From Clostridia bacterium (GTDB lineage: Bacteria; Bacillota; Clostridia; Christensenellales; Aristaeellaceae), in NCBI GenBank assembly GCA_017429695.1, contig JAFROK010000006.1:1-43175 (forward strand): DNA of 43,175 nt, given 5' to 3'. Shown in pieces: positions 2,345 through 38,478 of this stretch. A program made the position numbers and the translations under genes. Within the stretch, counting starts at the first letter, position 1. Every line of letters begins with the position of its first letter. The notes below the pieces were generated by a model. That model searched no databases, was not told the DNA's origin, and worked only from the letters and a program-made list of their open reading frames with translations.

Positions 2345-3544
2345 ATGAAACAGAAGCGCACATGGATAAAGAAAATGACGGGGACGGCTGCATGCCTGCT
2401 GGCGGCCGTGATGATCCTGGCGGGAGGATTCCCGCAGGCGGCCTCGGCGGCAGCTGATGGCACGCCGGTTTACAGCATCTCGGACCTGTTCAGCAACAGG
2501 GACCTTACACAGGAGGCGGACCTGAGCGAAGCGACGTCCATTACCGTCAGCGACAGCCAGGAGGTAAGGATCACGGAAGCCGGGGTTTATGTGCTGAGCG
2601 GAACGGCCGCGGACGCCACGGTATATGTGGAAGCGGCTGACGACGCGAAGGTGCAGCTGGTGCTGCAGGACCTGCAGGTGACAAACAGCGATTTCCCCGC
2701 TATCTACGTGGTATCGGCGGACAAGGTGTTTATCACGACGGCGGGGGACAGCGCCCTGGCGGTGACCGGAACCTTCCGGGCGGACGGCGATACCAACACG
2801 GACGGAGTGATTTTCTCCAGACAGGACCTGACGCTGAACGGGACGGCGACGCTGACGATCTCCTCCACGGACAACGGCGTGGTCTGCAAGGACGACCTGA
2901 AGATCACCGGAGGAACCTACGTGATTACGGCGAAATCAAAGGCTTTTGAGGCGAACGACTCCATCCGCGTGGCGGGCGGCAGCTTCACGCTGCAGGCCGG
3001 TACCGACGGACTTCACGCCGAGAACAGCGATGATAACAGCAAAGGATACATCTGGATCGGCGGGGGAACCCTGGACATTACCAGCGGGGACGACGGCATC
3101 CACGCTACCTCCGTGGTGCAGATCGACGACGGCGAAATCACCATCAGCGCGGCCGAGGGCATCGAAGGAACCTTCATCCAGCTTAACGGCGGCACGATCA
3201 ACATCGCGGCATCGGACGACGGCATCAACGCCGCTTATAAATCTACCGCGGTGGAAGTGGCGGTCGAGTTCAACGGCGCAACGGTGAACGTGGCGATGGG
3301 CGCCGGGGACACCGACGGAATTGACTCCAACGGGAATCTGTACATCAACGGCGGCGTCATCAGCGTGACCGGAAACAGCACCTTCGACTATGACGGGACG
3401 GTTTCCTTCACGGGCGGCACGGTTTACGTCAACGGCCAGCAGACCTCCTCCATCCCGAACCAGATGATGGGCGGCGGAGGCGGCTGGGGCAGAAACGGCG
3501 GCTGGGGCAATGGCGGAGGCCGCGGCGGACGCGGCGGCTGGTAA
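2345..3544 (+). CDS. Secreted Cthe_2159-type carbohydrate-binding beta-helix protein
   Basis: A 399-residue exported protein. The ATG at 2345 was chosen because it follows an AAAGGAAAGGCGG ribosome site and opens a typical signal peptide (basic residues 1-10, hydrophobic 15-30, Ala-Ser-Ala cleavage near 34). The body is a run of short strands with repeated Gly-Gly-x-hydrophobic and Asp-Asp-Gly-Ile motifs, the pattern of a right-handed parallel beta-helix in the DUF4353/Cthe_2159 family (PF14262). The family's founder binds cellulose and pectin-like acidic polysaccharide with calcium. The last 25 residues are almost only Gly, Trp, Arg and Asn, a tail that could be disordered or adhesive. It is the first gene of a compact block with a VTC polymerase and DUF4956. 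Ligand and attachment are not known; no LPxTG-like motif is seen. Confidence 0.82.
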   Translation: MKQKRTWIKKMTGTAACLLAAVMILAGGFPQAASAAADGTPVYSISDLFSNRDLTQEADLSEATSITVSDSQEVRITEAGVYVLSGTAADATVYVEAADDAKVQLVLQDLQVTNSDFPAIYVVSADKVFITTAGDSALAVTGTFRADGDTNTDGVIFSRQDLTLNGTATLTISSTDNGVVCKDDLKITGGTYVITAKSKAFEANDSIRVAGGSFTLQAGTDGLHAENSDDNSKGYIWIGGGTLDITSGDDGIHATSVVQIDDGEITISAAEGIEGTFIQLNGGTINIAASDDGINAAYKSTAVEVAVEFNGATVNVAMGAGDTDGIDSNGNLYINGGVISVTGNSTFDYDGTVSFTGGTVYVNGQQTSSIPNQMMGGGGGWGRNGGWGNGGGRGGRGGW

Positions 3545-3577
3545 CGCAAAGAGATCTTACATCAGGGAGGGATTCAT

Positions 3578-4312
3578 ATGGCGACGGGAAATGAGCGCTT
3601 CACCAACGTTATGATGCGCTACGAACTGAAATACCTGATGGACCGGGGGCAGACAGCCTACCTGGTGCGGCAGCTGAAAGGCCATATGGAACCGGACCTG
3701 TACGGAAAGACGACCATCGCTTCCCTGTACTACGACACGCCGGACCGGCGGCTGATCCGGACATCGATGGACAAGCCGGATTTCAAGGAAAAGCTGCGGC
3801 TGCGTTCCTACGGGCCGGCGACGGAGCATTCCCCTGTGTTCCTGGAACTGAAACGCAAGGCGTCCGGCATCGTATACAAGCGGCGGGTGCAGAGCACGAT
3901 TCCTGAGGTACGGGCGTTCTTCGACGGCGAAAACGGGCTGTTTGCGGACCGGCAGATCAGCGGCGAGCTGAACTGGTTCCGCGACTCATACGAACAGCTG
4001 GAACCGGCCTGCCTGATCCTGTACGACCGGGTGGCCTACTTTGAACCCGACGGGGACCTGCGACTGACGATCGACTTCTCTCCCCGGTACCGGATGGAGG
4101 ACCTGCGGCTGACGGGAAATATGGAAGGCAATCCGCTGCTGGCAGAGGGCGACACAATCCTGGAGGTCAAGGTGCAGGCGGCGATGCCCCTGTGGCTGAG
4201 CGCCATTCTGGACGAAGGGCAGATTTACAAAAACAGCTTCTCCAAATACGGGGAGGCATACCGGAAGGAGCAGGCAGCCGGGGTGAAACCGGCTCTCCAG
4301 ATCGCGGTATAA
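3578..4312 (+). CDS. VTC-domain polyphosphate polymerase family protein
   Basis: A 244-residue soluble protein of the VTC/triphosphate-tunnel fold (PF09359). The tunnel motifs appear in order: Arg-Tyr-Glu-Leu-Lys-Tyr (residues 14-19), Ser-Leu-Tyr-Tyr-Asp-Thr-Pro (about 48), Lys-Glu-Lys-Leu-Arg-Leu-Arg (about 70), Leu-Glu-Leu-Lys-Arg-Lys (about 88), Tyr-Lys-Arg-Arg, Leu-Arg-Leu-Thr-Ile-Asp, Leu-Glu-Val-Lys, and a C-terminal Ser-Phe-Ser-Lys-Tyr. In yeast Vtc4 these basic and acidic residues line the tunnel that transfers ATP gamma-phosphate to a polyphosphate chain. Unlike Vtc4 there is no SPX domain and no membrane segment here. The ATG has a good AGGGAGGG site. It sits 33 nt after the beta-helix gene and 43 nt before DUF4956. 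The bacterial family's product is assumed, not shown, to be polyphosphate. Confidence 0.85.
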   Translation: MATGNERFTNVMMRYELKYLMDRGQTAYLVRQLKGHMEPDLYGKTTIASLYYDTPDRRLIRTSMDKPDFKEKLRLRSYGPATEHSPVFLELKRKASGIVYKRRVQSTIPEVRAFFDGENGLFADRQISGELNWFRDSYEQLEPACLILYDRVAYFEPDGDLRLTIDFSPRYRMEDLRLTGNMEGNPLLAEGDTILEVKVQAAMPLWLSAILDEGQIYKNSFSKYGEAYRKEQAAGVKPALQIAV

Positions 4313-4355
4313 GGAAAAGGAACCCGCAGGAAAACACACAAAGGAGAGAAGAACC

Positions 4356-5027
4356 ATGTTTAATTCGATATATTCCACGGTTGTGACACCGGTGCAGCTG
4401 CTGCTGATGGCAGCGGCCGCGCTGGGATCCGGCATCCTGTATTCCTGGCTGATGAGCTTCAGGATCCGGGCGAACCGGCGGTTTTTCATCGTCAGCTCGA
4501 TGATGCCCTTCGTGGTGGGCCTGGTGCTGACGTTCATCAACGGCAACATCGGCGCGGGAATCGCCTTCGGCGGCGCGTTCGCGCTGACCCGGTTCCGCTC
4601 CGCCCAGGGCACCAGCGACGAGATTGTGACGGTGCTCATTGCCATGGCAGCCGGATGCGCTTTCGGGATGGGTTACATCGCCTACGGCGTGTTGGTGCTG
4701 GTGCTGTCAGGGCTGCTGTTCCTGGGACTGTCCGGGACAAAACTGTTTGACCATAAGGGGCATCAGCAGGAAAAACTGCTGAAGATTACGATTCCGGAAT
4801 CCCTGGACTATGCCCGGGCCTTTGAGGAACCTTTCGCCCGCTACCTGCAGGAAACGGAGAACGTGGGCGTGAAGACAACCGGCATGGGCAGCATGTACCG
4901 GCTGAGCTTCCGGATCCGAATGAAGAATCCGGAAGAGGAAAAGGAAATGATCGACGAGCTGCGGACGCGCAACGGCAACCTGGAAATCGCCGTGCTTCCC
5001 TGGGCGGAACCCCAGGCGCAGCTGTAA
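4356..5027 (+). CDS. DUF4956 family membrane protein
   Basis: A 223-residue protein with four to five hydrophobic segments in its first 126 residues (about 13-33, 43-62, 64-77, 90-105, 106-126) and a soluble C-terminal domain of about 95 residues that is probably cytoplasmic. The motif Phe-Ala-Leu-Thr-Arg-Phe-Arg-Ser followed by Gly-Thr-Ser-Asp-Glu-Ile (residues 74-90) is the hallmark of DUF4956. The family has no established function, but its genes often stand next to VTC-fold polymerases and CotH-type kinases in Clostridia. A reasonable guess is a membrane platform or channel for the polymer made by the VTC protein. The ATG is preceded by AAGGAGAG at good spacing. Confidence 0.83.
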   Translation: MFNSIYSTVVTPVQLLLMAAAALGSGILYSWLMSFRIRANRRFFIVSSMMPFVVGLVLTFINGNIGAGIAFGGAFALTRFRSAQGTSDEIVTVLIAMAAGCAFGMGYIAYGVLVLVLSGLLFLGLSGTKLFDHKGHQQEKLLKITIPESLDYARAFEEPFARYLQETENVGVKTTGMGSMYRLSFRIRMKNPEEEKEMIDELRTRNGNLEIAVLPWAEPQAQL

Positions 5028-5055
5028 AAAGACTTTTCCGGAGAGGAAAGATACG

Positions 5056-6258
5056 ATGAAAAAGAAACACCCGATATTGCGAAACCTGCTGCTGGACGCA
5101 GCGGCGGCCGGGCTGGCGCTGACGGTTTTCGCGCTGTTCCACCATGTGCTGCCGAAACAACAGGAGAGCCTGAACATGCAGACAGTAAGGCCTGCAACGG
5201 CACAGGTATCAGCAATACAGACAGCCGCGGCGCAGAAGACGGAAACCGAACAGGAAGCGGACGCGATCCAGGAAACAGAAGAAGCTTCCAGGCCGGCGGC
5301 GCGGATGACGGCATCGGCCAGCATCAGCGACACCGGGCGGGGAGGCCCGTCCGGCAGAAGCGGCGGCCGCAGCAGCGGAAAGGGCAGCGGGAAAAACAAC
5401 GGCGGTATGGGCGGAAACTCCAAGGGCGGCAGCGCCCTGGAGGAAAGCGGCGAAACGGCGGTCGGAACAGAGGCGGAAACCGTGAACGTTCCGATAGCGG
5501 AGAAATTTGCCGATAAATATACGGACGAGATCATTGAAACAGAGAACAGCTATTCGAGCCCGGATCTATCAATCACGGTGAACGAAGTAAACGACGGGAA
5601 TATCACCTATTACCTGGCGGATATCTATATGCGCGATATCACGTGCTTCCAGACGGCGCTGGCGGACGATACCTACGGAAGCGGATTCCGGGACAGCATT
5701 GCCGGGATGGCGGCGCTGAAAGGCGCGCTGCTGGCAGTGAACGGGGACTATTACGGCAACACCAGCGAAGGCGTCGTGATCCGGAATGGCACGATCTACC
5801 GGGCCAACGCCACGGACTGCGACGTATGCGTGTTATACTACGACGGCACGATGAAGGTGATGCCCGGGAGCAGCTTCTCCGTGGAGGAGGCTGTGGCGGA
5901 CGGCGCCTGGCAGGCATGGACCTTCGGGCCGGCGCTATTAGGCAGCAGCGAGGAAACGCTGACGAACTTCTCCAGCCCGAACCGGATCATCGCTGCCAAT
6001 CCGCGGACGGCCATCGGGTACTACGAGCCGGGACATTACTGCCTGGTCGTGGTGGACGGGCGGGGCGAATCCGCCGGCATTACGCTGCCGCAGCTGAGCG
6101 AGCTTTTCCACGAGCTGGGATGCAGCGCTGCCTACAACCTGGACGGCGGAAACTCCTCCGTCATGGTATGGGGAGATGAAGTGATCAACAATCCTTCCGG
6201 CGGCGGAAGGGAAAGCAGCGACGCGCTGCTGATCGCGGAGGTACGCAGCAATGAGTAA
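5056..6258 (+). CDS. Membrane-anchored phosphodiester glycosidase family protein (NAGPA type)
   Basis: A 400-residue protein with a short basic N-terminus, one membrane segment at about residues 12-32, a 110-residue low-complexity linker rich in Ala/Thr/Gln and then Gly/Ser/Arg/Lys, and a C-terminal catalytic domain (about 180-397) of PF09992. Motifs seen are Ala-Val-Asn-Gly-Asp-Tyr-Tyr-Gly, Phe-Gly-Pro-Ala-Leu, Asn-Pro-Arg-Thr-Ala-Ile-Gly, Val-Val-Val-Asp-Gly-Arg and Asn-Leu-Asp-Gly-Gly-Asn-Ser-Ser (361-368). Mammalian NAGPA removes N-acetylglucosamine from a sugar phosphodiester, and bacterial members act on phosphodiester-linked sugars outside the cell. Topology places the enzyme outside the membrane on a flexible stalk. 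Its place beside a VTC polymerase and a glycosyltransferase suggests trimming of a sugar-phosphate decoration. Its ATG has a GGAGAGGAAAG site; its end overlaps the next start by 8 nt. Confidence 0.85.
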   Translation: MKKKHPILRNLLLDAAAAGLALTVFALFHHVLPKQQESLNMQTVRPATAQVSAIQTAAAQKTETEQEADAIQETEEASRPAARMTASASISDTGRGGPSGRSGGRSSGKGSGKNNGGMGGNSKGGSALEESGETAVGTEAETVNVPIAEKFADKYTDEIIETENSYSSPDLSITVNEVNDGNITYYLADIYMRDITCFQTALADDTYGSGFRDSIAGMAALKGALLAVNGDYYGNTSEGVVIRNGTIYRANATDCDVCVLYYDGTMKVMPGSSFSVEEAVADGAWQAWTFGPALLGSSEETLTNFSSPNRIIAANPRTAIGYYEPGHYCLVVVDGRGESAGITLPQLSELFHELGCSAAYNLDGGNSSVMVWGDEVINNPSGGGRESSDALLIAEVRSNE

Positions 6259-6472
6259 GGCAATGAAATGGATGAACCACGGGACGGCCATCCTCGGGAT
6301 GATGTTTCTCGTATTCCTGGTGCTGGACCAGTTTAACCCGATGATGAACTTCACGGATAATGCCATATCCCGGTGGCTGCTGGCCGCCCTGTGCCTGGGC
6401 GCTGTTGCCAGCAGCATCCTGGCCTGGAGAAGGGAAGGCGAAAATGAAAGAAAAAACAATGAACAGCCTTAA
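6251..6472 (+). CDS. Small two-helix membrane protein, unknown function
   Basis: A 73-residue protein with two predicted membrane helices (about 11-27 and 42-60) and a charged tail (Arg, Glu, Lys, Asn). It starts inside the last codons of the phosphodiester glycosidase (8-nt overlap) and its 3' end overlaps the next gene by 29 nt, so it is translated as part of the same unit. No family was recognised. It could be a subunit or chaperone for one of the membrane enzymes beside it. Confidence 0.7.
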   Translation: MSKAMKWMNHGTAILGMMFLVFLVLDQFNPMMNFTDNAISRWLLAALCLGAVASSILAWRREGENERKNNEQP

Positions 6473-7958
6473 AACCAGGCGGGCCGGCATTGCAGGGCGG
6501 ATTGCCCTGGCCGGCCTTATTTCCGTTGCGGTGCTGCTGGTCTGTTCAAAGAATTCCCCGCTGTACCCGATGAACGATTGGGTGGACGTGAACTGCTTTT
6601 TCACAGTGGGGCGGGGAATGCGGCACGGGCTGACGCCATACCTGGACCTGTACGAGCAGAAAGGACCGCTGCTGTATGCGGCCTACGCGCTGGCGGCCTG
6701 GATTTCCGAAACGAGCTTCATCGGCGTATTCATCGTGGAAGCGGCCTGCTTCGCGACGTTCCTGTATATCAGCGGGCGCACGGCGGAAATGCTCTCCGGT
6801 ACATCAGCGGCCTTTGGATGGGCGGCGGCAGGACTGGGCATCGGCGTGCCGCTGTCACCGGCGTTTTCCCATGGCGGGAGCGCAGAGGAGCTCTTCCTGC
6901 CGGTGTTCGCGCTGGCGATATACCTGACGCTGAAGGCCATGAAGGAGCGGAAGCCGCTGACGGCGCGCCAGGCCTTCGGGCTCGGTGCCTGCGGCGCTGC
7001 GGCGCTGTGGACCAAATACACCTTCTGCGGCCTGTTCGCCGGGCTGGCGCTGGCGGTGACCGTCTGGTACATTGCGGATTTCCATGGAAAGCACCTGGGG
7101 AAAGCTGTGCTGCAGGCCATGGCGGGCGCCGGGGCCGTGACAGCAGCCGTTCTGATCCGTTATGCCGTGGCCGGGGCGCTGCCGGCTTTGTGGCAGGCGT
7201 ACTTTACGGACAACCTGACCCGATACTCCCAGAATATCCGCAGCGGGAATTATGACCTGCCGTTGCCGAACCTGCTGAATAACCTGAGTTGGTTTATCCC
7301 GGCGGCAGCAGGTCTGCTCTGGCTGTTATGCACGGTCAGAAAACGCTGGCGGGAGGTCGCGGCCTGCGTGCTCGGCGCCGTGGGACTCTTCATCTTCACC
7401 TATGCCAGCGGGCGGCGATATCCCTACTATGCCATCGTGATGGCCACTTTCGGCGCGATCGGGTTCGGCGCGCTGTTCGCGGTGATTCCGGGAAAGATCC
7501 GGGACAGGCGGGCGTTCCGTTACGTGGCTGCCGGGATCGTGGCGCTGGCGGTCTGCCTGGGACCCCTGGCGGCGTATCACTGGAGCGGGAACGTATACCT
7601 GCTCGGGAAGGAAAAAAGCGAGATGCCGCAATACCGGTTCGCGGAGACGATCCGGGAGGCAGAGGATACGTCCCTGCTGAATTACGGTTTTCTGGACGGC
7701 GGATTCTACTACGCGGCGGAATCCCTGCCCGTAACGCGCTGGTTCTGCACGCTGAACAACGATCTGCCGGAAATGAAGCAGGCGCTGAAGGCGGCGGTGG
7801 ACAACGGGGAAACTGAATTCATTGTTACGCGGCAGCAAAAACTGAAAAACGCCGGCCGGTATGAACTGGCCGACCAAGCGGAAATGGTATTCGAAGGCCG
7901 AAAATGGACCTATTATCTGTACCGGCGAAAAGCCGTACAGGAGACCAGTCCGCCATGA
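6444..7958 (+). CDS. GT-C type membrane glycosyltransferase (GT39-like)
   Basis: A 504-residue polytopic membrane protein with about 10-12 hydrophobic segments. The ATG at 6444 follows AAGGGAAGG and gives a basic N-terminus before the first helix. After that helix, the first external loop carries Asp-Trp-Val-Asp-Val-Asn and then Tyr-Leu-Asp-Leu-Tyr-Glu-Gln-Lys-Gly-Pro-Leu. This is the pattern of polyprenyl-phosphate-sugar-dependent transferases (ArnT/PMT-like, GT39), where acidic residues in that loop are catalytic. The last 90 residues are soluble. Such enzymes move a sugar from a lipid-phosphate donor to an acceptor on the outer face of the membrane. As last gene of the block it would supply the glycosylation step. 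Donor and acceptor are unknown. Confidence 0.72.
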   Translation: MKEKTMNSLKTRRAGIAGRIALAGLISVAVLLVCSKNSPLYPMNDWVDVNCFFTVGRGMRHGLTPYLDLYEQKGPLLYAAYALAAWISETSFIGVFIVEAACFATFLYISGRTAEMLSGTSAAFGWAAAGLGIGVPLSPAFSHGGSAEELFLPVFALAIYLTLKAMKERKPLTARQAFGLGACGAAALWTKYTFCGLFAGLALAVTVWYIADFHGKHLGKAVLQAMAGAGAVTAAVLIRYAVAGALPALWQAYFTDNLTRYSQNIRSGNYDLPLPNLLNNLSWFIPAAAGLLWLLCTVRKRWREVAACVLGAVGLFIFTYASGRRYPYYAIVMATFGAIGFGALFAVIPGKIRDRRAFRYVAAGIVALAVCLGPLAAYHWSGNVYLLGKEKSEMPQYRFAETIREAEDTSLLNYGFLDGGFYYAAESLPVTRWFCTLNNDLPEMKQALKAAVDNGETEFIVTRQQKLKNAGRYELADQAEMVFEGRKWTYYLYRRKAVQETSPP

Positions 7959-16307: not shown

Positions 16308-17348
16308 ATGCCTTACTATCCGCCGCAGGCGCAGCAGACGCCGGAAAAACCGCCAAAGAAGAAAGTGAATATCCGGCGGATTGTTCTCTGGGTTTCGGTT
16401 GTGCTGATCCTGTACGGGGGAATCCGGCTGAGCCTTTACCTGGATGAGATGAACCGGTCCCGGCTGACCAAGGCCAAGCTGGACGCCATTGTGGCGGAAG
16501 TGGAAGAAACGCAGAAAGCGGAAAGCCCGACGGCGGCTCCCGAAACGACAGAGACAGCCGGGGCGGAAGCATTGGCAGAAGTTTATCCGGTGACACCGGC
16601 TCCGGAGGCGGATACAAAAGCAGACGAAGAAACGCCGGCTGTGGAGGCAGTTGCTGAGGAGAAGGCGAATAACGCGATATCGGATACGCTGCCGCTGGTT
16701 CAGTATCCCGACGGATACAAGGCCAATGAAAAAGTGGCCAAGCTGCAGCGGGAAAGCGCGAATATTGTCGGATATCTGCAGATTGACGATCCGGATCCGA
16801 AAAAGACACTGAAGGAAGCGGTCGCGAAGAAGGACAACACATATTACCTGAACCACGACGCACTGGGCAACAGGAATGCCAACGGCGCGGTATTCCTGGA
16901 CCAGGATATTTCGCTGGAAACAAGGCCGTATACGATCCTGCTGTACGGGCACAATATGAAAACCGGGGAGAAATTCGGCAATCTCTGGCGGTATGAAGAT
17001 TTTTCCTATTTCATGCAGCACCGGATCTTCCAGTTGGACATGACCTATGACAGTGCCAAATATGCGATTTTCGCGGTGACGAATATCCGGCTGACGCCGG
17101 GGAGGGATCACTATGTGAACCTTCAGGCGCTGCAATCGCTGAACCGGGAAACGCGGCGGAAGGCACTGGACAGCCTGATCAAATACAGCAAGCACCAGAA
17201 CACGCTGGATGTGAACGAGGAGGATCAGGTGGTGCTGCTGATTACCTGCGTCGGGAATGATGATGAGCGGTTGGTGATTGCGGGAAGAAGACTCCGGGAC
17301 GGGGAGCGGGAAGATTACCTGGAAATGAAAAAATCCGGCGGAAGATGA
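16308..17348 (+). CDS. srtB: Class B sortase
   Basis: A 346-residue membrane-anchored transpeptidase. It has a Pro/Gln/Lys-rich cytoplasmic tail, one membrane helix (about 24-43), then a linker of about 100 residues rich in Glu, Ala, Thr and Pro, and a sortase domain from about residue 135. The catalytic triad is visible: His215 in Tyr-Gly-His-Asn-Met, Cys314 in Leu-Leu-Ile-Thr-Cys, and Arg321 in Asp-Asp-Glu-Arg-Leu-Val. The Leu-Tyr-Gly-His-Asn-Met context and the long Ala-Val-x-Asn-Ile-Arg segment fit class B. Such enzymes attach proteins with NPxTN-like sorting signals to peptidoglycan or join pilus subunits. No substrate with a C-terminal sorting signal was found nearby. The long acidic linker is unusual. 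Confidence 0.88.
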   Translation: MPYYPPQAQQTPEKPPKKKVNIRRIVLWVSVVLILYGGIRLSLYLDEMNRSRLTKAKLDAIVAEVEETQKAESPTAAPETTETAGAEALAEVYPVTPAPEADTKADEETPAVEAVAEEKANNAISDTLPLVQYPDGYKANEKVAKLQRESANIVGYLQIDDPDPKKTLKEAVAKKDNTYYLNHDALGNRNANGAVFLDQDISLETRPYTILLYGHNMKTGEKFGNLWRYEDFSYFMQHRIFQLDMTYDSAKYAIFAVTNIRLTPGRDHYVNLQALQSLNRETRRKALDSLIKYSKHQNTLDVNEEDQVVLLITCVGNDDERLVIAGRRLRDGEREDYLEMKKSGGR

Positions 17349-17440: not shown

Positions 17441-18880
17441 TTATACTTCCGAGAAGAGGAAGTCGTGATCCTCGACATACTGTTTGGCGTAGGAGTCCGG
17501 ATATACGAACATCATCAGGTGGCGGCAGTCGAAGAAGGCGTCGCCGGCGATTTCCGTAATGGACTTCGGCAGCTGGATGGAAAGCAGGTTTTCGCAGCCT
17601 TCAAAGGCTTCGGAACCGATTTCTTCCAGACCTTCCGGGATTTCCACGTGGTTCAGGTTCTGGCAGCGGGCAAAGGTCTGGGTCGCAATGGACTTGATTT
17701 TGGATCCCAGGGTGACACTGTCCAGCATGGTGCAGGAGCCGAAAGCATGGGCGCCGAGGGTTTCAAGGGAGTCCGGGAGATTCACAGTCTCCAGGGAGCG
17801 GCATCCTTCAAAAGCGGAATCACCGATATCAATCAGGTTATCCGGAAGGTTGATCACGGAAAGATTGCCGCAGCCGCTGAACGCGCAGGGCGCAATAATC
17901 CGGATGGAAGACGGCAGCCTGACGGAGACCAGGGATGAACAGGCATAGAAAACGGAATATTCCACTGCCGGCAGGCCTTCCGGAAGGGTGATATCCGCCA
18001 GGGAAGAGCAACCGTGGAAAGCGTTGTTCCAGATCCGGGTCAGGGAAGATGAAAGCTGAATGGATTTCAGGTTTTTACAGCCGTAAAAGGCTTTCTGCTC
18101 AATGGTGATGACCGTATCCGGCATGTTGACTTCATTGAGCTGCAGCCGGTTCGCAAAGGCCTCCTCGGCAATAATCCGGACGCCGTCCGGCACTTCGTAG
18201 GTGTGTTCACGCCGGGAGAAGGGATAGAACAGCAGGCGGTGTTCAGACTTGTTCAGGAGCACACCGCCCCGGTCCTCAAAGATCGGATGGTTGGCGGAAA
18301 CCTTGAAGGAAGCCAGGGATACGCAGCCGGAGAACACGTTTGATCCGAATTCCACCAGCTTGTTGGGGAGGTTGATTTCCTTCAGGGATTCACAGGCGGC
18401 AAAGGCATTGTCGCCCAGAGAAGACAGATTTTTGGGCAATGTGATGGATTCCAGGCTCCGGCATTCAGAAAAGGTTTCCGGCCCGATCTGTTTGATGGAA
18501 TCCGGCAGTTCAATACTGCGGAGGGAAGAACAGGACTGGAAAGTGGAATAATTCAACTTTTTGACAGCCGGCGGGATTTTGATGGATTTCAGCGCGCTGC
18601 ATCCGATGAAGCACCATTCGCCGATGATTTTCACAGAATCCGGGATGACGATGGAAACCAGCGATTCACACCAGGAGAAGGCAGCTTCGCCGAGGACCGT
18701 AACGGTCTCCGGGATGACGACGGTCTGCAGGGAGGAGAGCCAGGAAAAGGCGTTGTCGGCGATTGAGGTGACCGGGTGGCCTTCGTGCTCAGAGGGAATG
18801 ACGACACGGGATTCATTGCCTTCGTATCCGTCCAGCTGGGCAGTGCCGTCGCGGCGGACGCTGAAGAGAAAATCGGACAT
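17441..18880 (-). CDS. BspA-type leucine-rich-repeat protein without signal peptide
   Basis: A 479-residue protein made almost wholly of about 18 LRR_5 repeats of 23 residues: Ala-Phe-x-x-Cys-x-x-Leu-x-x-Ile-x-Leu-Pro-x-x-Leu. A short N-terminal cap has the motif Tyr-x-Gly-x-x-Ser-x-Val-Val-Ile-Pro; the C-terminal cap has the typical Tyr-Ala-x-x-Tyr-Val-Glu sequence. One repeat is interrupted near residues 200-235 by a longer segment with Gly-Gly-Val-Leu-Leu. Family members are usually secreted or surface-bound and mediate binding, yet this one starts directly with the cap and has no export signal. It is therefore predicted cytoplasmic, or the start is misplaced. A ribosome site AAAGGAG precedes the ATG. 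It lies 148 nt after the ROK gene on the same strand. Confidence 0.85.
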   Translation of the reverse strand: MSDFLFSVRRDGTAQLDGYEGNESRVVIPSEHEGHPVTSIADNAFSWLSSLQTVVIPETVTVLGEAAFSWCESLVSIVIPDSVKIIGEWCFIGCSALKSIKIPPAVKKLNYSTFQSCSSLRSIELPDSIKQIGPETFSECRSLESITLPKNLSSLGDNAFAACESLKEINLPNKLVEFGSNVFSGCVSLASFKVSANHPIFEDRGGVLLNKSEHRLLFYPFSRREHTYEVPDGVRIIAEEAFANRLQLNEVNMPDTVITIEQKAFYGCKNLKSIQLSSSLTRIWNNAFHGCSSLADITLPEGLPAVEYSVFYACSSLVSVRLPSSIRIIAPCAFSGCGNLSVINLPDNLIDIGDSAFEGCRSLETVNLPDSLETLGAHAFGSCTMLDSVTLGSKIKSIATQTFARCQNLNHVEIPEGLEEIGSEAFEGCENLLSIQLPKSITEIAGDAFFDCRHLMMFVYPDSYAKQYVEDHDFLFSEV

Positions 18881-34846: not shown

Positions 34847-34947
34847 AACAAAAACAAAACCGGATACCGGATAGCAGAATGGATTTTTCCAAATATAAAA
34901 GCCATCCGGCCATCCGGACGTGACAACGGATGACGAGGGGGACGCAT

Positions 34948-37900
34948 ATGCGCCTGGAAAAGACGGATATGGACCGGGACCGCGAAAAGCTGCTGGAAGA
35001 CGAAATCCGGCAAATACAGGAAGAACGGATAATCTATGCCCGGCTGCATGCGCTGACGGGTAATTTTATCTGCGTTTATGTGGTGGATCCCGAAACGGAC
35101 CATTATCGCGAATTCAGCGCTACGGATGATTATGTGAGCAGCTTTTCCCAGGCAAAGGAAGGCAGGGACTTCTTTACGACCGTACGGGAAGCGGCCAGGC
35201 AATTCAACGATCCGGAAGACCTGGACCATTTCCTGGAAGCGTTCAGCAAAGAACAGATTATGGCGGAAATTGCCGACAGCGGAATTTACACCCTGGTATA
35301 CCGCGTGATGATGGACGGCAAACCGCTTCACGTTCAGATGAACGCCGCGATGGTGGAGGAAAAAGAAGGCCCTCGCCTGATTGTGGGCCTCAACAATATT
35401 GACGCGCAGTACCGTCAGACCGAGAAAAACAGGGAAATTGCCCGGCAGAAGGAAATATACGACCAGATTACGGCCAGCCTGGCGGAGCAGTATGACACGC
35501 TGTACTATATCGATATCGCGACGGGCACATACAGCGAAATATCTTCCACAGACGAATACAAGAAGCTGAATGTGCCGGCAACCGGCAACGACTTTTTTGC
35601 CGAAAGCCGGAGAAGCATCAGCAAATATGTCCATCCGGAAGACCAGGAGAAAATCCTGGCCCTTCATTACAAGGACGTGATGCTGGAAAACCTGAAAAAA
35701 AGGACGTCTTATTCCATTGCATACCGGCTGGTGGTCAACGGACGGGTTCAGCATATCCGGCATACGGAAATTTTAGCCCGGGATAAGAAACATATCCTGG
35801 TCTGTATTGAGAATATTGACGCGGAGGTCAAAGCACAGCTCGCCCTGCGGGCAGACCGGATCAGGAGCGTGACCTTCACGCAGATTGCGGAAAGGCTGGC
35901 GGACCACTATGACCTGATCTACTATATCGACTGCAAAACATCCTCATATGCAGAACTGTCCATCAGGAGCAAATCCGGTGAACTGAAGGTGCAGGAAGAG
36001 GGCGAAGATTTCTTTGCGGCTTCTATGAAGAATATGGACAGGCTGGTGTTTTCGGAGGACCGGGACCGGATACGGCTTTTCCTCGACAGGGACAACCTGA
36101 TTTCCCAGCTGGAAAAAAGCCGGCAGCTGACCGAAGATTACCGGATGATCACGGAAAACGGAAAAACGCAGTTTACGCGGATGTCGGTGACCTATTCATC
36201 CGACCGCAGCCATTTTATTATCTGCGTCGAGAATCGTGATGATGACGTCCGCGCGGAACAGGAACACCTGGCAGCGCTTTCCCTGGCCAATGAAATGGCA
36301 CGACGTGATGAACTGACCCATACGAAAAACAAAACCGCATACCAGGAAACGGAAAGGGAACTACAGCGGCAGATTGAAGAAGGAGAATGCGCTCCGTTCA
36401 GCATTGTCGTATGTGATATCAACGGCCTGAAAGCGGTGAATGATACGGAAGGCCACAAGGCAGGAGACGATTATATCCGGGCATCCTGCATACTGATCTG
36501 CCGCACTTATCAGCACAGTCCCGTGTTCCGGATCGGTGGGGATGAATTTACCGTGATCCTGCGGGGCGAAGATTATGAGCACCGGGAAAAGTTGCTGTCC
36601 GGCATGAGAAGACAGGTGGAAGAAAACATCCGTATGGGCGAAGGAGCTGTTGTTGCCTCGGGAATCTCAGACTATCGACCGGATGAAGACCACACCGTCG
36701 GGGAGGTGTTCAACCGGGCGGATACCCGGATGTATGCAGACAAAACCCGGCTGAAGGAAATGAAGCTGATTCAGGAAAGCTATTCCCTGAAGGAAAAGGC
36801 AAACAACAAAATGATTACCGAAGAGCGGCGGGCCATGCTGGACGCGCTGTACAAGTCATTTGAGGTGGTTTCGGAAGGCAATTATGTATACCTGTGTGAT
36901 ATGAAATACGACTTATCCCGCTGGTCCAAAACAGCGGTGGACCGGTACGGGCTGCCGTCCGAATATATGTACGGCGCCGGGGATATCTGGGAGAACCGGA
37001 TTCATCCGGATGACCGGGCCGCTTACCACCTGGGCATCGATGAGATATTTTCCGGGAATGCGGCCGGACATGATATGCAGTACAGGGCACAGTGTGTTTC
37101 TGGAGAATATGACGTATGTACCTGCCGCGGCACCGTGATCAGGGATCCATCCGGCGAACCGGATTATTTTGCCGGCACGATCCGTAACCACGGCCAGCAG
37201 GGCCATATGGACATGCTGACCGGACTGCGGAACCAGTACGGCTTTTTTGAAGACCTGGACAGCTGTATCAAACGGAATACCAGCTTCAGTGTGGCACTGT
37301 TCGGAATCAGCAAATTTGCCGGAATCAACGAGATATACGGGTATCATTTCGGCAACCGTGTGCTGCAGGCATATGCCAGGAAAGTTTTTGAAACGGTCGG
37401 CAACGCGGGACATACCTACCGGATTGACGGAACCAAGTTTGCGGTTATCAGCAGCACTTATCAGGTTGATGAAATGCAGATTGCATACAAGCGCTTCCGT
37501 ACATTCCTGCATGAAGGATTCCAGGTGGACGGACAAAAGGTCCTGCTGGACCTGAACTGCGGCGCACTGCGGGTGGACAGCTTTGATATTGATTCCCAGA
37601 CCGTTTACAGCTGCCTGAACTTTGCCTATGAAGAATCCAAAAACCTCCGGAGGGGGGATATGGTGGAATTCCGGAACGAACTGAACGGCGGCAGCCAACA
37701 GCGCCTGGAGCAGCTCCAGGCTATCCGGGCGTCCATCACGCACGGATTTGATGGGTTCTATCTGTTGTATCAGCCGGTTGTGAACGCAGATACGGAGCAG
37801 ATCATCGGGGCGGAGGCGCTGCTCCGATGGAAAAACGACCGGTACGGGACAGTCCCGCCGGATCAGTTTATCCCGGTGCTGGAATCCGATCCGCTGTTTC

Positions 37901-38478
37901 CTGAACTCGGAGAATGGATCATCCGGGAAGCAGTACTTGGCGCCAAACAGATGCTGAACCAGTATCCGGACTTTGTGATTAACGTCAATCTGTCCTATTC
38001 CCAGCTGGAAAGGCCGGATTTTGTGGACACGGTCCTGCGGATCCTGAAAGAAGTGGGATATCCTCCGGAGCAACTTTGCCTCGAGGTGACAGAACGATGC
38101 AGGCTGCTGGACATGAACCTGCTGAAAAATGTGGTTGCCGGCCTGAAAGCCCGGGGAATCCGGATTGCCCTGGATGACTTCGGCACCGGTTTTTCCTCCG
38201 TCGGCATCCTGAAAGAAATTCCGTTTGATACGATCAAAATTGACCGCAGTTTTGTCATGCGGATTGAAGAAAGCGCACTGGACCGGAAGCTGATCCATAA
38301 TATTGCCGATCTCGCCAGTGTTTTCCAGGCAAAAATCTGCGTCGAAGGCATTGAAACGGCAGGTATGCGGGATATTCTCAGGACATTCCATGTGGGAAGC
38401 TTCCAGGGTTACTATTATGCGAAGCCACTGCCGCATGAGCAGCTGATGGCCTGGAAGCTGAAGGAGGAAACGAAATGA
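34948..38478 (+). CDS. Large PAS-GGDEF-PAS-GGDEF-EAL cyclic di-GMP protein
   Basis: A 1176-residue cytoplasmic protein. The ATG at 34948 is chosen because GAGGGGG precedes it; an ATG six codons earlier has no site. Three similar PAS-like modules (about 20-155, 165-290, 300-425) repeat the pattern Tyr-Tyr-Ile-Asp...Asp-Phe-Phe...Arg-Leu...Asn-Ile-Asp. Then comes a GGDEF domain with intact Gly-Gly-Asp-Glu-Phe (530-534), a fourth PAS-like module, and a second GGDEF whose motif is degenerate (Asp-Gly-Thr-Lys-Phe) and likely inactive. The EAL domain has Glu956-Ala-Leu-Leu-Arg, Asn-Val-Asn, Leu-Glu-Val-Thr-Glu, Asp-Asp-Phe-Gly-Thr-Gly, Lys-Ile-Asp and Glu-Gly-Ile-Glu, so phosphodiesterase activity is expected. 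Both synthesis and breakdown could be switched by the PAS sensors. It overlaps the next gene by 4 nt. Confidence 0.9.
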   Translation: MRLEKTDMDRDREKLLEDEIRQIQEERIIYARLHALTGNFICVYVVDPETDHYREFSATDDYVSSFSQAKEGRDFFTTVREAARQFNDPEDLDHFLEAFSKEQIMAEIADSGIYTLVYRVMMDGKPLHVQMNAAMVEEKEGPRLIVGLNNIDAQYRQTEKNREIARQKEIYDQITASLAEQYDTLYYIDIATGTYSEISSTDEYKKLNVPATGNDFFAESRRSISKYVHPEDQEKILALHYKDVMLENLKKRTSYSIAYRLVVNGRVQHIRHTEILARDKKHILVCIENIDAEVKAQLALRADRIRSVTFTQIAERLADHYDLIYYIDCKTSSYAELSIRSKSGELKVQEEGEDFFAASMKNMDRLVFSEDRDRIRLFLDRDNLISQLEKSRQLTEDYRMITENGKTQFTRMSVTYSSDRSHFIICVENRDDDVRAEQEHLAALSLANEMARRDELTHTKNKTAYQETERELQRQIEEGECAPFSIVVCDINGLKAVNDTEGHKAGDDYIRASCILICRTYQHSPVFRIGGDEFTVILRGEDYEHREKLLSGMRRQVEENIRMGEGAVVASGISDYRPDEDHTVGEVFNRADTRMYADKTRLKEMKLIQESYSLKEKANNKMITEERRAMLDALYKSFEVVSEGNYVYLCDMKYDLSRWSKTAVDRYGLPSEYMYGAGDIWENRIHPDDRAAYHLGIDEIFSGNAAGHDMQYRAQCVSGEYDVCTCRGTVIRDPSGEPDYFAGTIRNHGQQGHMDMLTGLRNQYGFFEDLDSCIKRNTSFSVALFGISKFAGINEIYGYHFGNRVLQAYARKVFETVGNAGHTYRIDGTKFAVISSTYQVDEMQIAYKRFRTFLHEGFQVDGQKVLLDLNCGALRVDSFDIDSQTVYSCLNFAYEESKNLRRGDMVEFRNELNGGSQQRLEQLQAIRASITHGFDGFYLLYQPVVNADTEQIIGAEALLRWKNDRYGTVPPDQFIPVLESDPLFPELGEWIIREAVLGAKQMLNQYPDFVINVNLSYSQLERPDFVDTVLRILKEVGYPPEQLCLEVTERCRLLDMNLLKNVVAGLKARGIRIALDDFGTGFSSVGILKEIPFDTIKIDRSFVMRIEESALDRKLIHNIADLASVFQAKICVEGIETAGMRDILRTFHVGSFQGYYYAKPLPHEQLMAWKLKEETK

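Follow-up and report, generated by a model that had tools for sequence, protein, structure and literature searches.

The yeast VTC complex (Vtc4/Vtc3/Vtc1) couples the synthesis of polyphosphate to its export, and the channel used for this has basic inner walls (PMC9911596). The triphosphate tunnel (TTM) proteins, to which VTC enzymes belong, have diverse activities, and of four that were tested only Vtc4p made polyphosphate (PMC4641920). In bacteria, CotH, a poly-phosphate polymerase and DUF4956 form a gene set known from the vicinity of pel operons in Gram-positive bacteria (PMC7112168), and the NELoc-2 locus of Clostridium perfringens contains genes for VTC, 'tubulin' and CotH (PMC2879425). 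From their place and size, we take the NELoc-2 'tubulin/FtsZ' proteins to be DUF4956 proteins. A separate family, the Cthe_2159 proteins, binds cellulose and polygalacturonate (PMC6712302). Among the open-licence literature matches listed, as far as their text was available, no link between Cthe_2159 and VTC proteins was found.

We describe here a block of six genes, all on the + strand at positions 2345-7958 of a 43,175-nucleotide stretch of DNA (the window) from a Clostridia bacterium of the Aristaeellaceae. The window spans a complete contig (C2, JAFROK010000006.1) of a 60-contig assembly (GCA_017429695.1) that is 88% complete. The block encodes, in order, a secreted Cthe_2159-family beta-helix protein, a VTC-family protein, a DUF4956 membrane protein, a phosphodiester glycosidase, a small two-helix membrane protein and a predicted GT-C type glycosyltransferase. 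With the known cassette it shares the core of VTC and DUF4956 genes side by side, and the same genome holds the CotH form on another contig, C58. It differs in having Cthe_2159 in place of CotH, a VTC protein of another branch, and the glycosidase, two-helix and GT-C genes in addition; the block showed no pel genes. The block is a variant of the VTC-DUF4956-CotH cassette, and lies outside the cassette proper since CotH is missing.

Inheritance of the VTC-DUF4956 pair and its partners

VTC and DUF4956 are a co-inherited, near-universal pair. VTC genes occur in 84 of 120 related genomes, most of them fragmentary, and 102 of the 148 VTC places were read (101 neighbourhoods plus the window) using neighbourhood profiles built on the window and on the second VTC locus of its genome. 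Of 103 VTC open reading frames (ORFs), 101 have a DUF4956 gene on the same strand at a distance of at most 1.5 kb. The distance matrices of the two families correlate at 0.95 over 98 pairs, a value reached in 0 of 999 permutations, and the DUF4956 tree requires one change of VTC-branch label, both families sharing one deep split.

The partner of this pair differs between branches: Cthe_2159 takes the place held by CotH in the sister branch. The VTC tree holds 100 of 103 rows, three fragments shorter than 180 residues being excluded and rows longer than 330 residues trimmed to their last 260. A 32-row branch with support 92 (95 for 31 of its rows) contains 25 Cthe_2159-linked rows, 6 with neither partner, 1 with both and no CotH-only row, versus 53 CotH-linked, 9 with neither, 5 Cthe_2159-linked and 1 with both among the other 68 rows; the 'neither' class also takes in loci truncated at the end of a contig. 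Exchange of one partner label for the other takes 2 changes on this tree, or 8 changes for the Cthe_2159 label and 11 for the CotH label when 'neither' and 'both' rows are counted, on a topology that comes from a quick search without bootstraps, has long branches and is rooted at its midpoint. The VTC protein of the window falls in the Cthe_2159 branch, and that of the CotH-DUF4956-VTC locus on C58 in the other.

Seen from the side of Cthe_2159, 36 of 72 strong places (E<=3e-20) in the 120 relatives have a VTC gene no more than 6 kb away, against 0.64 expected from uniform placement on 2.7-Mb genomes; two of the 72 places are in one gene. VTC domains are present in 46 of 299 genomes sampled across the phylum, and in this sample, outside the window genome, 16 of 32 Cthe_2159 places (E<=1e-25) are at most 6 kb from VTC. 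One locus carries a 1734-aa ORF with a Cthe_2159 match (L126:3320-8524) downstream of its VTC-DUF4956 pair, in addition to a second Cthe_2159 gene.

Of 30 Cthe_2159-linked VTC genes, 8 have two-component genes no farther than 6 kb away on the same strand, compared with 1 of 53 that are CotH-linked, 2 of 15 with neither partner and 0 of 2 with both; these counts are lower bounds, obtained by phmmer from one pair (L042). The eight loci are L042, L045, L049, L052, L053, L083, L126 and L129. The two-component genes sit between Cthe_2159 and VTC in L045 and L126, and none is found beside the block of the window.

As a whole, the six genes are a recurring but modular set, with no fixed unit. All six families are found together in 8 of the 102 VTC-centred loci. 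The exact order of the window occurs in four, the others being L033, L043 (where the GT-C gene runs off the contig) and L059; L040, L041, L053 and L083 show other orders or intervening genes. Five of the six families occur in L034, L046, L049, L052 and L075. VTC and DUF4956 make up one module, glycosidase and two-helix protein a second, fixed pair, and Cthe_2159 and GT-C are separable, GT-C being optional. In genome G041, a CotH gene (L034:12062-14137) lies directly behind the two-helix gene, which is the place of GT-C in the window. In genome G036, VTC-DUF4956 (L055) and the glycosidase/two-helix/Cthe_2159 genes (L142) are in two separate loci. An earlier sequence-only reading of this DNA had named the lack of a conserved neighbourhood in related genomes as a result that would speak against it, and the survey finds the neighbourhood conserved. 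The six-gene unit it proposed survives as families conserved together, but dissolves into modules of varying order and content. Its statement that CotH is absent holds for the block, but describes one branch only, CotH being encoded at 5 places elsewhere in the genome, C58 included.

The VTC tunnel and its MgtC-like membrane partner

The VTC protein (3578-4312) matches PF09359 at 136 bits (cut-off 23; 1.7e-39) over positions 2-232 of 235. When the single protein was compared with the PDB by phmmer, only a chance match was obtained; a family profile, used instead, matches yeast Vtc4 (3g3q) at 1.6e-20, and the C-terminal part alone, as a profile, found nothing in the PDB. Residues K18, R74, R76, K92, K101, R151 and R162 of the window protein align with K200, R264, R266, K281, K294, R361 and R373 of Vtc4, as numbered by counting in the 8i6v row. 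These seven basic tunnel residues are 99-100% conserved in 100 sequences, as are D53, K72, E90, D166, E196, K198, S222 and K223. E196 and K223 correspond to Vtc4 E426 and K458 by motif only, the alignment ending before them. In yeast, R264A/R266A/E426N is the change used to inactivate the enzyme (PMC9911596). The window protein is a predicted cytoplasmic polyphosphate polymerase, which shares with the yeast complex the catalytic domain family, the tunnel residues and the position of a polymerase beside a membrane partner. Unlike the yeast complex, it has no SPX domain; its membrane partner is an MgtC-like protein, and no Vtc1-type channel subunit was seen.

This partner, the DUF4956 protein (4356-5027), scores 29 bits against PF16316, below the cut-off of 30.6, and 33 of 34 aligned members of its family match at E 0.01. 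Its predicted structure (pLDDT 84) comprises five helices followed by a ferredoxin-like C-terminal domain. The family is collinear with the MgtC protein of the same genome over both the membrane part and the C-terminal domain (hhalign E 8.2e-6, probability 84%). A Foldseek search of the model against the PDB returned nothing at E<=0.001, the matches listed being ferredoxin- or ACT-like domains. R79 and R81 are kept in 100 of 100 sequences and F80 in 98. The C-terminal domain of MgtC lies inside the cell; if that of DUF4956 does likewise, the R-F-R motif would be placed at the inner end of helix 3. DUF4956 is distinct from the MgtC family in forming its own Pfam family, in its conserved R-F-R motif and in its constant VTC neighbour.

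The surface protein, the add-on genes and the layout of the block

The Cthe_2159 protein (2345-3544, 399 aa) matches PF14262 at 231 bits (cut-off 25.8; 1.7e-68) and PDB 4peu at 2.1e-33. It belongs to the same beta-helix family as Cthe_2159 of Clostridium thermocellum, from which it differs by its Gly/Arg/Trp-rich C-terminal stretch and by its operon context.

The glycosidase (5056-6258) is membrane-anchored and carries a NAGPA domain (PF09992, 105 bits, cut-off 25, 6.6e-30; PDB 3ohg 9.1e-8, 6pku 6.3e-6). It shares the catalytic domain of other NAGPA/DUF2233 phosphodiester glycosidases, to which its NPRTAIG, DGR and NLDGG stretches align; its membrane anchor, its linker with the motif KGGSAL and the adjacent two-helix protein set it apart. 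The two-helix gene (6251-6472) encodes 73 aa with a conserved DQFNPMMNF loop in a 14-sequence alignment, and follows a NAGPA gene in 14 of 14 VTC-centred cases as well as in L142. KGGSAL (KGGSSL in L075), within a Gly/Ser-rich, basic and otherwise variable linker, is present in all 15 NAGPA proteins linked to a two-helix protein and in 0 of 12 other NAGPA ORFs, and may mark a point of cleavage or attachment. Charge was rejected as a mark of these linkers, their best 30 residues carrying +3 to +7 versus +2 to +7 in others. In the phylum sample the two-helix family is found in the window genome only, the other members coming from its genus and family; glycosidase and two-helix protein are a lineage-restricted pair. 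The idea that the two-helix protein is a channel subunit like Vtc1 was likewise set aside: its match to PF02656 (DUF202) is below cut-off (18.3 bits against 23.4; 3 of 14 members at 0.1, best 0.0033), and its gene is always beside the glycosidase gene and not always beside VTC.

Pfam holds no family above cut-off for the two-helix protein or for the last protein (504 aa), and the latter has no sequence match in the PDB. Its predicted structure (pLDDT 73) matches ten PDB structures at E<=0.001, all of them DPY19, ArnT, AftA, OST or PglB, which we take to be GT-C enzymes. The top match is DPY19 (1.8e-5, TM 0.51) and the highest TM is that of ArnT 5f15 (2.9e-5, TM 0.62). The model thus predicts a glycosyltransferase of the GT-C fold. 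The ORF opens mechanically at 6360, and the ATG at 6444 is the likelier start, giving a gene at 6444-7958.

The co-directional genes are separated by 33 bp (Cthe_2159/VTC), 43 bp (VTC/DUF4956) and 28 bp (DUF4956/glycosidase), and overlap by 8 bp (glycosidase/two-helix) and 29 bp (two-helix/GT-C). All six are under constraint at the protein level, differences from two sister loci falling mostly at third codon positions; for GT-C against L033, there are 48, 44 and 158 differences at codon positions 1, 2 and 3. The sequence-only reading was right on the tight packing and on the family names, now upheld by Pfam for Cthe_2159, VTC and NAGPA and by predicted structure for GT-C, with DUF4956 just short of its Pfam cut-off; NCBIfam names none of the six proteins. 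It was wrong in counting several phosphodiester sugar enzymes, there being one only, the NAGPA protein. As for the strong terminator that it placed upstream, a 12-pair hairpin followed by a T run is indeed found at 2242-2272 on the + strand (-17.5 kcal/mol, z -2.8; 1 of 200 shuffles equally good), but terminator-like sites over the region are not in excess (7 versus 8.1 in shuffles). Nor are promoter-like sites (5 versus 4.8). On the 3' side, a 204-bp gap with one promoter-like site (10/12; sites of this kind show no excess over shuffles) separates the block from a gene of the 5'-nucleotidase family.

Just 5' of the hairpin, positions 42-2197 hold a Y-family DNA polymerase gene (IMS) and a small gene. 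A similar-looking polymerase gene (L040:2242-3849) lies upstream of the L040 version of the block. Farther along the window are a sortase-domain protein barely above cut-off (16308-17348) and a BspA-type leucine-rich-repeat protein (17441-18880), which add further surface functions to this contig, and a PAS-GGDEF-EAL protein of 1182 aa (34930-38478).

Possible roles of the cassette

Our tentative reading, possible although we would not yet call it probable, is that of a Cthe_2159-type VTC-DUF4956 cassette in which polyphosphate is made at the membrane and passed outward to a fibre-binding surface protein. On the inner side of the membrane, VTC would use ATP to build polyphosphate; DUF4956 would hold VTC in place there and move the lengthening chain to the outside, with the chain entering at the invariant Arg residues where helix 3 ends on the inside. 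Outside the cell, the Cthe_2159 beta-helix may make use of this chain or retain it, its Gly/Arg-rich tail being a candidate for polyanion binding, and would itself bind cellulose or pectin of plants. GT-C and the glycosidase/two-helix pair would form a lineage-specific add-on placing and trimming surface sugar-phosphodiester groups, and its link to the polymer is weak. In favour of this reading we count the pairing and joint inheritance of VTC and DUF4956, the partner-specific branches, the many Cthe_2159 places near VTC, the conserved Vtc4-type tunnel residues, the invariant R79 and R81, the binding of cellulose and polygalacturonate by Cthe_2159 proteins, and the presence of PPK1 in the genome, beside which a second, membrane-coupled enzyme would need a use of its own. 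Gene content, linkage, the joint inheritance, the conserved active-site residues, the kinship with MgtC and the GT-C fold are computational results, whereas we infer the activities, from polyphosphate synthesis and export to polymer binding by the tail, fibre binding and sugar trimming. At this level of inference, it is plausible that a membrane phosphopolymer enzyme stands at the core of a surface or adhesion system.

A number of observations weigh against this reading. The tail is one point: after exclusion of two contig-cut proteins, a net charge of at least +2 in the last 30 residues is found in 19 of 33 Cthe_2159 proteins near VTC versus 2 of 19 away from it (Fisher p 0.001), an association that is only suggestive and is lost on kinship correction. 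Several of the 19 cationic ends are basic residues behind a membrane anchor, the comparison falls to 12 of 33 versus 2 of 19 (p 0.056) when a Gly-rich tail is also required, and only 3 independent pairs on supported branches back either tail association. That the tail binds polyphosphate is a guess. For the membrane part of DUF4956, the PDB offers no fold match. An assay of bacterial VTC activity was not found in the literature searched, as far as its text was available. PPK1 could supply the polyphosphate of the cell without VTC. At the level of transcription, no promoter was located, there being no sigma-70-like site of at least 8/12 between 2197 and 2345. Last, conserved E16 of VTC occupies the position of Vtc4 Thr198, and glutamates at such positions belong to the acidic patch of hydrolase-type TTM proteins (PMC4641920), although R14 and K198 (paired by motif) are basic where that patch is acidic.

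This last residue is among the arguments for seeing VTC as a triphosphatase, or as a regulatory triphosphate sensor on DUF4956, the operon then being a regulated adhesion unit that makes no polyphosphate. The diverse activities of TTM proteins and the two-component genes near 8 of 30 Cthe_2159-linked VTC genes point the same way. We nevertheless judge it unlikely: the PF09359 score is far above cut-off and the basic Vtc4 tunnel residues including K198 are conserved. We also give a low probability to a phosphorylation system. Exported polyphosphate, or another VTC product, would be an external phosphoryl donor, for CotH in the sister branch; here, the Cthe_2159 protein or a glycan would receive phosphate or glycosyl-phosphate, which the NAGPA enzyme would uncover in the way that human NAGPA uncovers mannose 6-phosphate. 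Such a system would fit the use of CotH and Cthe_2159 as alternative partners of VTC-DUF4956 and the CotH gene directly behind the two-helix gene in L034. It would also fit the Cthe_2159 loci that lack VTC (20 of 36 places away from VTC were fetched): in 5 of these 20 (L143, L144, L149, L150 and L151), NAGPA and CotH lie alongside on the same strand, a further point against our cassette reading, and the Cthe_2159 proteins of these five are short (250-318 aa) and without a Gly-rich tail. The block itself, however, has no kinase-like gene and, by Pfam, no sugar-phosphotransferase, and no test of a phosphoryl-donor role was found in the available text of the literature searched.

The same five loci weaken the idea of one surface phosphopolymer pathway, with synthesis by VTC, passage through DUF4956, glycosylation by GT-C, trimming by NAGPA and a dedicated binding protein, since NAGPA accompanies Cthe_2159 there without VTC. 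Tight packing, the exact order kept in L033, L043 and L059 and the eight loci with all six families speak for it, but most loci of the Cthe_2159 branch are missing one or more of the three genes for glycosidase, two-helix protein and GT-C, and G036 splits the set between L055 and L142; this pathway appears quite improbable.

If the cassette reading holds, its wider form would be a second bacterial polyphosphate machine besides PPK, made of VTC and an MgtC-like DUF4956 exporter, whose branches serve CotH or fibre-binding beta-helix clients, with surface polyphosphate as an adhesive or a phosphoryl donor; we regard this generalisation as rather doubtful. Through the strict co-inheritance of VTC and DUF4956 and their partner-specific branches, 'polyphosphate polymerase plus DUF' becomes a testable claim on the export of polyphosphate by bacteria and on the surface clients that it may serve. 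Two close relatives of the window genome are uncultured Clostridia genomes, one of them from goat reticulum, and the client family binds plant fibre, so that the cassette may bear on attachment to feed.

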